DNA of 61,781 bases, taken from Pararhodobacter sp. (lineage in GTDB: Bacteria; Pseudomonadota; Alphaproteobacteria; Rhodobacterales; Rhodobacteraceae). The translations under genes were made by a program, and so were the position numbers. This document shows, piece after piece, positions 27,050-30,326 of this stretch; the first letter of the stretch is position 1, and each line of letters begins with the position of its first letter. The notes beneath the pieces are model-generated. The model worked only from the letters and a program-made list of their open reading frames with translations. It searched no databases and was not told where the DNA came from. Where the stretch lies: NCBI GenBank assembly GCA_020832665.1, contig JAFIEG010000016.1, positions 1 to 61,781 on the forward strand. Direction: 5' to 3'.

Positions 27050-28027
27050 TCAGGCTTTTTCGTCAAGGCATACGACACGGTTGCGTCCTTCGTTTTTCGC
27101 CTGGTAGAGGGCACGGTCCACGCGACTGCTGAGATCCATGATGGACTCTCCTGATTGCAACACAGCGACACCAGCGCTTACTGTGATCGTGGGCAATCCC
27201 TTCGGTGGGTCCATCCCTTCGATGGCCTCGCGGAGCCGCTCTGCAAGTGCGACGGCGCCTTCAAAGCCCGTGTTGGGTGCGAGGACGCTGAACTCCTCGC
27301 CGCCCCAGCGGGCAACGACATCCCCGGCACGAGCATTGGCCTGCAGGACAGTTGCCACGACTTGCAACATTCGATCTCCTTCCGGGTGGCCCCAAGTGTC
27401 GTTAACCCTCTTGAAGTGATCAAGGTCCAGCATGATCGTCGCCAGGGGTTGCCCTGATCGTTGCGCGAGTTCGAAATGAGATCGCATCAGGGCGTCCAAC
27501 TGGCGCCGGTTTGGCAGGCCTGTCAGTTGGTCGGTAAGTGCCTGCTGTTCCATCTGCGCTGCGTGGCGAGCGATTTCACGCCTGGAGCGCGCGAGCTCAC
27601 GTTCTTGCGCCGCATATTCATCGATGAGCTCGAACAACTGGCGACGGAGTCGCCGCTCTTCGTCAATGTCAGGCTCACAGACGACAAGAATGAACCGGTC
27701 GCGATACGACACCTGGCCGAGCCAGCTCTCGGATTCGCCTTGGGCGCCGAGCGTTATTCGACCCGAATAAATGACCGAGCCATTCTCGGCAGTCGCTGCG
27801 CGCGCGAGAATTTCCCCCAGCATCGGGTTGATGAACACGGCTCTCATCTGCGCCGGCGTCGCGCTGGCGATGGTTGCGTTCCCCAACAGATCAAGGAACC
27901 CGCGATTTGCGTCCACCAGGCCGCCATCGGTGTCAAGCACGACGAGCAGCAGGCCACGCAGCGGTCGCAGAAAGTCGGATACGAATGGAGGCGTCGCAGC
28001 TTCCGGCGTGATGGACGGTTCGTTCAT
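27050..28027 (-). CDS. Diguanylate cyclase with PAS-like N-terminus
   Basis: 325 aa. A PAS-like sensory region (about 25-120), a coiled-coil linker (about 125-165) and a GGDEF domain (about 170-322). The active site reads RWGGEEF, with the product-inhibition site RAGD exactly five residues before it, so it should be active and feedback-inhibited by c-di-GMP. No EAL domain. Its start overlaps the stop of the cobalamin-binding sensor upstream, so the two are translated together and probably work together. Confidence 0.92.
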   Translation of the reverse strand: MNEPSITPEAATPPFVSDFLRPLRGLLLVVLDTDGGLVDANRGFLDLLGNATIASATPAQMRAVFINPMLGEILARAATAENGSVIYSGRITLGAQGESESWLGQVSYRDRFILVVCEPDIDEERRLRRQLFELIDEYAAQERELARSRREIARHAAQMEQQALTDQLTGLPNRRQLDALMRSHFELAQRSGQPLATIMLDLDHFKRVNDTWGHPEGDRMLQVVATVLQANARAGDVVARWGGEEFSVLAPNTGFEGAVALAERLREAIEGMDPPKGLPTITVSAGVAVLQSGESIMDLSSRVDRALYQAKNEGRNRVVCLDEKA

Positions 28028-29094
28028 TTGGAAGCTTTCACCGCCGAAAGCGCAGTGGAGTACCAGCCATCCACACCGAGACGTTCGGCAACGCCGGAAA
28101 TATCGGCGAGGGCGAACCCGCCGGCGAGAATCTGGGGGGCGCAGTCGCCCATGCGTGATCGGATCGCGAGAACGGCCTCACGCAGCCGGGCCAGTTGCGC
28201 TGTCAGCGAGACGGACAGGCCAACCAGATCCGGCTTCGTCGAGACAACGCGCTCGACCAGATCGGCGGTCGGCGTGTCGGCACCGAGAAACTCCACCGAC
28301 CACCCGTCAAGCTCGAACGCATCGGCGACAATCTGCAAACCGAGAGCATGGCGATTTGTAGCGACACAGGCGAAAATCGCCCTTGAGCCCGAAGGCGGTG
28401 CCGCGTGCGCGGCCGCGAACCGGTCTGCCAGGAGCTGCTGTACCAGCGCGCTTGCGAGATGCTCTTGCGCCACGCTGATCTCTCGCGCGTGCCAGCGCTC
28501 GCCAACGCGGTACATCGCGGGCTGGATCAGCGTCACCGCCCCCTCCAGATAGTCGCCTTCGGCTGTCGCCTGTTCGAGCAATGCCCGCGCCCGGGGGCGG
28601 TCACCGGCGACAAGGGCATTCACGAGCGCTTCGGTCAAAGGATGCGGCTTGGCGAGCTGGGTGAACCCGCTGAAGGGCACAACGGCGTTGGCAGGCGGAC
28701 CGGAAAGCGCGCTGCGGCCCTTGGCGAGGATGCTCTCAACTGCCTGGCTCTGCTCCGGGGGCAGGTGCTCATGCAGATAGCGCCCGAGAAGTTCGAGAGA
28801 GAGATCTACCGAAGCGCTCGGCACACCGCGCGCATCGAGCAGACGATAAAGCCAGATCACATAGGCCTCGAACGGACGGGAACTTCCGGCAATCAGGCTG
28901 CCGATAAGGTGGTCGAGATGGAAGTGAAGGTCGTCGCGGCAATATGTGCGCCCGCGTTCGCCGAACGGAGCAAGGCTCTCGCCGAGGCGTTGATAAATCT
29001 GGTCGGTGATTGCCTCCACCGTCCGGGTCCGAAGGTGTTCCAGCTTCGCGACCGCAGATTCGGCCAGTACGAGGTCGGTTTCGTTGTTTACCAT
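28024..29094 (-). CDS. CarH-like cobalamin-binding sensor without DNA-binding domain
   Basis: 356 aa. Residues 1-145 form a helical domain I do not recognise by name. Residues 150-225 form the B12-cap helix bundle with W201-H202 and E211-H212, the W-x9-EH pattern of the adenosylcobalamin photoreceptor CarH, including the His directly after Trp that ligates cobalt after illumination. Residues 238-350 are a Rossmann B12-binding domain with NRHALG, whose His249 sits where the lower axial ligand His is expected (Asn replaces the usual acidic residue), followed by GLSVSLT and LAGGFAL. There is no MerR HTH, so output must go through a partner, most simply the overlapping GGDEF gene. Confidence 0.88.
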   Translation of the reverse strand: MVNNETDLVLAESAVAKLEHLRTRTVEAITDQIYQRLGESLAPFGERGRTYCRDDLHFHLDHLIGSLIAGSSRPFEAYVIWLYRLLDARGVPSASVDLSLELLGRYLHEHLPPEQSQAVESILAKGRSALSGPPANAVVPFSGFTQLAKPHPLTEALVNALVAGDRPRARALLEQATAEGDYLEGAVTLIQPAMYRVGERWHAREISVAQEHLASALVQQLLADRFAAAHAAPPSGSRAIFACVATNRHALGLQIVADAFELDGWSVEFLGADTPTADLVERVVSTKPDLVGLSVSLTAQLARLREAVLAIRSRMGDCAPQILAGGFALADISGVAERLGVDGWYSTALSAVKASK

Positions 29095-29104
29095 GGCGAG
29101 CGTG

Positions 29105-29401
29105 TCACTCGGTTATAAGCTCAAGATACTCCAGTGCCCGGCTTCCCTTCTCGACCTTCAGCCCTCGCGGCATATCGGCGTGGGACTCGCCGAGATGCCG
29201 CTTGTGCCAGATCTCGAAACTCTCTTGGTCGGTCCAGAAGGTGATCAGCCAGAATTCGTTTCCACGCTCCTGAGGGCTGAGGACTTCCATGCGCACGAAT
29301 CCCGAATGCTTGTCGACGCGCCCGGGCCGCTGTCGGAAAGCGTCACGAACCATCTCTTCCTGGCCCTGGCGCACACGGAAACGACTCATTGCAACGAACA
29401 T
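29105..29401 (-). CDS. Antibiotic biosynthesis monooxygenase (ABM)-domain protein
   Basis: 98 aa from ATG 29401, the normal length of a single ABM/HmoA-like ferredoxin-like fold. Typical features are the opening FVAMSRFRVRQG, the central FWLITFWTDQESF and a conserved His in WHKRHLGESH. Such proteins include heme-degrading monooxygenases and small quinone oxygenases. A longer frame runs upstream to 29620 but is not conserved-looking. No strong ribosome-binding site was found. It ends 10 bases before the cobalamin sensor gene, so it probably heads that operon. Confidence 0.75.
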   Translation of the reverse strand: MFVAMSRFRVRQGQEEMVRDAFRQRPGRVDKHSGFVRMEVLSPQERGNEFWLITFWTDQESFEIWHKRHLGESHADMPRGLKVEKGSRALEYLELITE

Positions 29402-29792
29402 TGGTCTCTGCGCGATCTCCGAAAGGGTTACGTCTCGAAAGTGGCCGAGACTCGTTGGCAATATCCCCGGAACGCGCGCATGAACGTGACCAGGCGATGC
29501 GGTCAAGGGCCGTGGTCGCGCCGATCGCTTCGATGACGCCGCAACGGTCAGTAAGCGGTCGATCTCGTCAATCAAGCGTGATGTCGGCGTTCCCCTGATC
29601 TTCAGGTATGCTCTGGTCAACGCCTGGTCAACCCGTGAACACGGTCTGGGGCACGCCGAATGACTTCATCATGCCAACCCAAATCCGTCGCGACCACTCC
29701 GCGCAACGGTAAAGGAAAATACCGAAGTGCCCGTATTGAACCGCCCTGGCTGCGCCCTACCTTCCCGAGCAAGCCAATGTAAGGATTCCGCC
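29402..29792. other. Divergent intergenic region
   Basis: About 390 bases between the ABM gene and the glutathione peroxidase gene. It includes a direct repeat of GGTCAAC (around 29616-29634). An open frame extends the ABM gene upstream to 29620 but without family similarity. Promoters for both directions should lie here; none could be assigned. Confidence 0.4.
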
Positions 29793-30326
29793 ATGCAGCG
29801 CCTGCTCCTTGCCCTGCTGATTGCCATCTGGCCGCTCGCCGCCACCGCAACCGCCAGCCCGGTGCCGAACTTGGACTTCACCGCCATCACCGGCGAGGCC
29901 TTGCCGCTTTCGGCGTGGCGCGGGCGTCCCGTTCTGGTGGTCAACACCGCCTCGCGCTGCGGCTTCACCCGGCAGTATCAGGACATGCAGGCACTGCACG
30001 ATCGTTATGCCGCGCGCGGGCTGGTGGTGCTGGCGGTGCCATCGGACGATTTCCGCCAGGAGCTCGCAAGCGATGCCGAGGTCGAAGCCTTCTGCCGTAT
30101 CGAACTTGGCGTCGAAGTGCCGCTGACCCGCATTACCCCCGTCACCGGGCAGGACGCTCACCCCTTCTATCGCTGGCTGCGCGAGGCCCATGGCCACATA
30201 CCGAGCTGGAATTTCAACAAGGCGCTGATCGGGCCGGACGGTCAGCTACTGGGTTTCTGGGGTTCGCGCACGCGGCCCACGTCGCGCCCCATCACCCGTG
30301 CCATCGAGGCGGCCCTCGGGTCATGA
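29793..30326 (+). CDS. Exported glutathione peroxidase-family protein
   Basis: 177 aa with an N-terminal signal peptide (about 1-22) and a thioredoxin-like GPx fold. The peroxidatic Cys is in VNTASRCGFTRQY and the WNFNKALIG motif is intact. The Gln of the catalytic tetrad, normally in a F-P-C-N-Q-F segment, is replaced: the segment reads VPSDDFRQE. It should reduce peroxides in the periplasm, probably with thioredoxin-like rather than glutathione donors. ATG 29793 is preceded by TAAGGA. Confidence 0.9.
   Translation: MQRLLLALLIAIWPLAATATASPVPNLDFTAITGEALPLSAWRGRPVLVVNTASRCGFTRQYQDMQALHDRYAARGLVVLAVPSDDFRQELASDAEVEAFCRIELGVEVPLTRITPVTGQDAHPFYRWLREAHGHIPSWNFNKALIGPDGQLLGFWGSRTRPTSRPITRAIEAALGS

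Follow-up and report, generated by a model that had tools for sequence, protein, structure and literature searches.

A probable globin-first photocobilin encoded between an ABM-fold protein and a diguanylate cyclase in Pararhodobacter sp.

What does a cobalamin protein with the residues of the light sensor CarH control when it lacks a DNA-binding domain and its gene runs directly into that of a diguanylate cyclase? The question is raised by a 61,781-nucleotide stretch of Pararhodobacter sp. DNA (contig JAFIEG010000016.1; hereafter the window). An initial annotation, made from the letters of the window, described the protein as a CarH-like B12 photoreceptor module coupled to the cyclase and the arrangement as one that it did not know as described. 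Several of its observations stand as made: W201-H202, E211-H212, and H249 are present where it placed them, a Pfam scan finds no MerR DNA-binding domain, the sensor stop codon and the next ATG share four bases, and the translation of the partner reads both GGEEF and, five residues before it, the inhibition site RAGD within a full GGDEF domain (Table 1). The description as CarH-like holds in part. It rests on the matches to the B12-binding_2 and B12-binding domains in Pfam, because the W-x9-EH motif is weak by itself: a six-frame translation of the window contains it four times, 166 of 20000 shuffles of the sensor produce it, and we dropped it as sufficient proof. Like CarH, the sensor has the W, E, and H of the adenosylcobalamin pocket, the lower His, and the bis-His residue H202; unlike CarH, it has no MerR domain, and its score against CarH, the best NCBIfam model, is 79.7 bits, far under the cut-off of 400. 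The annotation also overlooked the N-terminus, which a profile search identifies as a bilin globin, ruling out "CarH without MerR" as the main description.

Table 1. Features of the locus, with positions in the window.
Feature	Position	Strand	Evidence
ABM (IsdG/HmuQ-like) protein, 98 aa	29105..29401	(-)	Pfam ABM E 5.1e-14
Sensor, globin-first photocobilin, 356 aa	28024..29094	(-)	begins 10 bases past ABM stop
Bilin-binding globin domain (predicted), residues ~1-125, with C52, D55, W81	28720..29094	(-)	profile vs SasPcob E 2.9e-9
B12-binding_2 helical domain, residues 155-223, with W201, H202, E211, H212	28426..28632	(-)	Pfam E 6.8e-17
B12-binding Rossmann domain, residues 238-352, lower ligand H249 (predicted)	28039..28383	(-)	Pfam E 3.4e-16
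ATGA, 4-base overlap of sensor stop and cyclase start	28024..28027	(-)	read from sequence
Partner: PAS-like N-domain, coil, GGDEF cyclase (GGEEF, I-site RAGD), 325 aa	27050..28027	(-)	GGDEF Pfam E 1.4e-46
PAS-like N-domain, common to other sensor-following partners	27593..28027	(-)	leave-one-out profile 7.4e-14

A phmmer search of the PDB with the whole sensor ranks the photocobilin SasPcob (8J2W, 8J2X) first (E 1.3e-24). The match falls into two segments, one over the B12 part and one that places residues 41-111 on the SasPcob biliverdin domain, and their order is swapped between SasPcob and the sensor. The N-terminal 140 residues alone, as a single sequence, match SasPcob in the PDB at E 3.7e-6. 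A profile built on 12 globins, that of the window and those of homologues, reaches SasPcob at 2.9e-9 and allophycocyanins from 3.1e-6; of the 52 PDB chains that it finds at E up to 0.01, every one is a photocobilin, a phycobiliprotein, or smURFP. The Pfam Phycobilisome family matches five of these 12 globins at E up to 1 (best 5e-10), the window globin itself at E 0.079, under the cut-off. Because its N-terminus matches the SasPcob biliverdin domain and phycobiliproteins by profile, the sensor is, as judged from its sequence, a globin-first photocobilin. It resembles the photocobilins SasPcob and AbDPcob (8J2Y) in combining a B12 domain, a bilin globin, and W-x9-EH, and differs from both in its swapped domain order. 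We dropped this order as a novelty, since the accessible part of the photocobilin report mentions groups in which the B12 domain comes first or last (PMC10979010).

The sensor keeps two residues that line the biliverdin site in SasPcob, an Asp and a Trp: D270 and W296 (SasPcob numbering is chain index plus 6, checked on W61, E71, and H108) correspond to D55 and W81 in an ungapped alignment. We compared 14 globin-first loci, which exclude four further Azospirillum records (H1, H4, H5, and H7) and are not independent, L008/L018 and L013/L059/L060 being close pairs or triples. The Trp is kept in all 14 and the Asp in 12 (E in L003, N in the Ilyobacter locus L016); at the position where phycobiliproteins attach their bilin, 11 have a Cys, L008 and L018 a Ser, and L016 a Met. 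The sensor has this Cys, unlike the B12-first proteins: among six of these, all actinobacterial, the Trp is found in six, the Asp in five, and the Cys in none. A seventh plasmid locus, from Pontibacillus (L061), gave no globin match. The sensor Cys aligns with that of allophycocyanin, and the sensor motif is CRDD, as against the CxRD site. Photocobilins are said to lack the attachment-site Cys, in the portion of their description at hand (PMC10979010); photoglobins, by the text available of theirs, carry CXQD where the sensor has CRDD (PMC10151467), and with that motif already reported we dropped the Cys as a novelty as well.

In the B12 part, W-x9-EH is present in all 12 globin-first B12 domains, the window counted, and absent from the one other B12 protein found in the same genome. 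That second protein (L012:4230-5066, contig C107) scores best against corrinoid methyltransferase proteins, under their cut-offs. The signature of light-responsive B12 domains described with SignatureFinder consists of GxxW, EH, GxxH, and GxxxP, according to the part of the account that we draw on (PMC11796333); the sensor has three of the four (GERW, EH, and GADTP) and reads TNRH in place of GxxH. Unlike SasPcob and AbDPcob, the sensor has a His after the Trp, H202, which aligns with CarH His132, a position that the same account gives as Gln in SasPcob and Tyr in AbDPcob (PMC11796333). Because of this residue, the sensor could form a CarH-type bis-His light state. In an alignment of 12 B12 rows, His stands at this position in the window alone.

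The initial annotation also overlooked a gene on the same strand, 10 bases upstream of the sensor gene. Its reading frame is open back to a TTG at 29620, and homology begins only at the ATG at 29401. The predicted product has, by sequence, the ABM fold of IsdG-type proteins, and its best model is HmuQ (46 bits vs a cut-off of 130). In L009, L010, and L011, a protein of the same subfamily (42-49% identity) is encoded immediately before the sensor, making four of the 14 globin-first loci with the window counted; no member was found in the available flanks of the remaining ten globin-first loci or of the six B12-first ones, flanks that span only ~0.4 kb upstream in L018 and ~3 kb in the B12-first loci. 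Like IsdG and HmuQ, the protein keeps the Trp and His of the catalytic triad: W65 and H74 are invariant in all four linked ABMs and by spacing correspond to the catalytic Trp and His of LFO1. Unlike IsdG and HmuQ, it has a conserved MP-x-GLK tail and a Ser in place of the triad Asn, so that Asn-Trp-His is replaced by Ser-Trp-His in all four linked ABMs, whereas the position is Asn in all 26 unlinked ABMs examined. The Asn is required in the characterised IsdG-family enzymes covered by the available text (PMC5557675; PMC6018153).

Some ABM is found at 1e-12 in 33 of the 398 genomes of the phylum; a model of the subfamily scores 161-182 bits in four, which are the four sensor carriers, and at most 67 in the rest, a result whose informative part is the absence of orphans, since the model was built from those same four linked proteins. 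With the window ABM as sole query, the other three linked ABMs score 82-84 bits and the 26 unlinked ones at most 52 (30 of the 34 matches had loci to examine). G682 has a second, generic ABM besides its linked one (55 bits), and a search in the class of G653 (48 genomes, all sampled before) gave only the two members of the subfamily already known. Heme oxygenase (PF01126) is found in one of the six sensor genomes (G345, at only 28 bits) and the phytochrome domain PHY in two (G345 and G941). Neither has a match in the four ABM-linked genomes, two of which are 70-82% complete; the heme oxygenase search covers PF01126, with HugZ- and ChuW-type enzymes outside it. G345, with both PF01126 and PHY, has a sensor and no ABM in the available flank, and G941, also a sensor carrier, gives no match to PF01126 and shows no ABM in the short flank available. 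That the ABM might replace a canonical heme oxygenase fits the absence of PF01126, if weakly, and we regard the protein as a candidate bilin enzyme in which the catalytic Asn is replaced by Ser.

Downstream, the partner carries the motifs of a diguanylate cyclase, GGEEF and an RxxD I-site, as read from its translation. Its N-domain matches PAS_8 only at E 0.007, under the cut-off, and has no match in the PDB at 0.1 or in our plasmid searches. It recurs behind other sensors: among the loci examined, leave-one-out profiles recover it in the window (7e-14), L008 (3e-13), L018 (4e-15), L003 (9e-4), and L011 (2e-7), and do not recover the Ilyobacter locus L016. A homologue of the GGDEF partner, 35% identical, lies directly behind the sensor in L003, from a Rubrivivax MAG. 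A partner gene comes next on the same strand in 12 of the 14 globin-first loci. It encodes a GGDEF protein in three (the window, L003, and L016), a PAS-like-LuxR protein in two (L008 and L018), and a histidine kinase in five (L010, L013, L014, as two overlapping frames, L059, and L060); in L009 and L011 the contig end cuts the partner so that the N-domain alone is visible, and L015 and L017 have no partner. In L008:5189-6945 and L018:414-2173, the sensor is followed by an N-domain related to that of the window with a LuxR-type DNA-binding output. A single PAS family for all partners is unsupported, as the two partner types share the coil only (hhalign probability 15%). A tree built from 17 rows of the B12 part groups the sensors that go with type B kinases in one fork (90/88), and the window, L003, L008, and L018 form a weak fork (80/84) nested in a larger weak fork with L011 and Streptomyces proteins; the ABM-linked sensors are spread over more than one fork. 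From this tree, it is only moderately supported that sensor clade goes with partner type.

We consider it likely that the ABM protein, the globin-first photocobilin, and the GGDEF partner form a three-gene light-sensing operon in which light changes c-di-GMP, the sensor probably using two pigments, B12 and a bilin. In the mechanism that we propose, the ABM would bind heme and make or pass on a bilin, which is the least certain step; the conserved sites of the sensor suggest that adenosylcobalamin would sit between its Rossmann and helical domains and that its N-terminal globin would take up biliverdin or a similar bilin. As in SasPcob, green light would hit the cobalamin directly and red light would act through the bilin, either color breaking the Co-C bond and shifting the conformation or oligomeric state of the sensor. 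The lit sensor might then touch the PAS-like domain and coil of the partner, altering GGDEF activity and so c-di-GMP. We infer the coupling of sensor to cyclase from operon structure and conservation. Turnover by AbDPcob, a photocobilin-diguanylate cyclase fusion, rises more than 10-fold on illumination in the portion of the report available (PMC10979010), and by analogy activation of the partner by light is the better guess. A B12-based light switch that acts on c-di-GMP and not on DNA continues to be the best reading, as the initial annotation had it, with a photocobilin as the sensor rather than a plain CarH without MerR. More doubtful, though possible, is a fuller scheme in which an ABM/IsdG-fold enzyme (Ser-Trp-His) replaces heme oxygenase and supplies a dedicated bilin, the sensor may bind that bilin covalently via C52 and form a bis-His light state, and related sensors use small adaptor domains to drive exchangeable outputs (c-di-GMP, LuxR transcription, and phosphorelay). 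Against the operon as a light-sensing unit count the TNRH in place of GxxH, the two of 14 loci without a partner, the GGDEF output in three of 14, and the ABM in four of 14.

Other explanations give light, or one of the pigments, a smaller part. The sensor might work through B12 only, responding to green light alone, with the globin as a scaffold without bilin. In AbDPcob, a His stands at the Asp position, biliverdin occupancy is ~20%, and the authors suggest that such a scaffold role may apply, as far as the available text of the report goes (PMC10979010), and the Ilyobacter sensor, in which the Asp is replaced by N and the Cys by M, is perhaps a B12-only form by its sequence. The sensor in the window, however, keeps D55 and W81 and adjoins a gene for a protein of heme-oxygenase fold, and we regard this explanation as unlikely. 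Similarly improbable, in our judgment, is a dark sensor that sets c-di-GMP by adenosylcobalamin supply (or by heme, bilin, or iron status via the ABM), with light incidental. A homologous pair in which the sensor overlaps a GGDEF gene is found on plasmid pILYOP01 of Ilyobacter polytropus, a fusobacterium from marine mud (L016:5755-7798). Ilyobacter is a strict anaerobe. Binding of adenosylcobalamin alone also lowered cyclase activity in AbDPcob, according to the same portion of that report (PMC10979010). Yet the sensor has the adenosyl-pocket residues of the photoactive group (W201, E211, and H212, plus H249 on the lower side), and if light played no part, the joint presence of sites for two photosensitive cofactors would be difficult to account for.

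A further explanation leaves the two proteins merely co-transcribed, with the cyclase obeying a ligand of its own PAS-like domain. Such a domain could bind a ligand, and two Skermanella sensors have no partner at all; the recurrence of a related N-domain behind the sensor with a LuxR output in L008 and L018 and the way type B kinase partners track the sensor fork argue against it, and we give it little weight. The explanation that comes closest to an even chance, falling slightly short of one, concerns a single step and is compatible with a light-sensing operon: the ABM may not make the bilin but carry heme or bilin, or be an unrelated monooxygenase, with the bilin coming from elsewhere. The Asn-to-Ser change in all four linked ABMs is what such a protein might show, and known IsdG-family enzymes yield staphylobilin or mycobilin, not biliverdin, by the parts of the literature at hand (PMC9393634, PMC5557675); the invariant W65 and H74 and the lack of a PF01126 match in the four ABM-linked genomes point the other way, toward a bilin enzyme.

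How much of this is new? That the arrangement was undescribed is contradicted by published photocobilin control of a cyclase by light, both fused and in trans: AbPcob or SasPcob in trans alters the isolated AbDGC domain in vitro, as given in the accessible part of the report (PMC10979010). The locus is this published idea as separate genes. It shares with published photocobilins a diguanylate cyclase as target, indicated here by gene context, and differs from SasPcob and AbDPcob in that the cyclase is a separate neighboring gene with a PAS-like domain and in having an ABM gene in the operon. Photoglobins and BBAG-2 globins likewise combine a bilin globin with a B12 protein and a tie to bilin synthesis, but their enzyme is called heme oxygenase, with FDBR in some clusters, as the available text has it (PMC10151467), rather than an ABM-fold protein. 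The sensor family is therefore known, and what looks new, as far as we searched, is the three-gene module with a candidate bilin enzyme; we found no description of an ABM-photocobilin operon in the literature searched, and one may stand in the 2022 photoglobin paper or in supplements. If our reading is true, the locus is a natural in-trans photocobilin-cyclase pair, whereas the published in-trans effect was obtained with one domain taken out of a fusion protein, by itself or together with a photocobilin of another species, in the portion of the report at hand (PMC10979010). With its relatives it shows a single kind of photosensor combined with different outputs, may be useful for green- and red-light control of c-di-GMP, and may link a photoreceptor to a new bilin enzyme in bacteria without a recognised heme oxygenase. 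The candidate bilin enzyme is the most valuable part of the locus.

The sensor is rare and scattered, being found, with its own genome counted, in 1 of 198 genomes of the family, 2 of 385 of the class, and 4 of 398 of the phylum. The genus (18 genomes) has one clear sensor and a second, weak match that is B12-only; around other carriers, the sensor is in 2 of 17, 1 of 18, and 1 of 74 genomes, the carrier counted. An exact-peptide scan of an 84,980-species collection gave one locus, and some match to the sensor occurs in 19 plasmid records, in 10 of which it spans 80% or more of the query. Horizontal transfer is reasonable to suppose from this pattern. Base composition gives no clear sign of foreign origin (GC 0.59 for the ABM, 0.64 for the sensor, and 0.61 for the cyclase vs 0.63 for the window), and a scan of the locus for promoters and terminators gave nothing above chance. 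A gene for a glutathione peroxidase-like protein lies divergent from the operon at 29727-30326 (+).

Some related loci vary the arrangement. G786 (L011:233-1599) has genes for an ABM, a globin, a B12 protein, and a PAS-like protein; the globin gene is separate from that of the B12 protein and overlaps it, which by sequence may be either a natural split photocobilin or a draft-genome frameshift. On Streptomyces plasmids (L053, L055, L056, and L057), B12-first photocobilins adjoin PP2C/SpoIIE phosphatase genes, with a STAS-domain gene next in three of the four, and in L054 the neighbors of the B12-first photocobilin are gas-vesicle genes.
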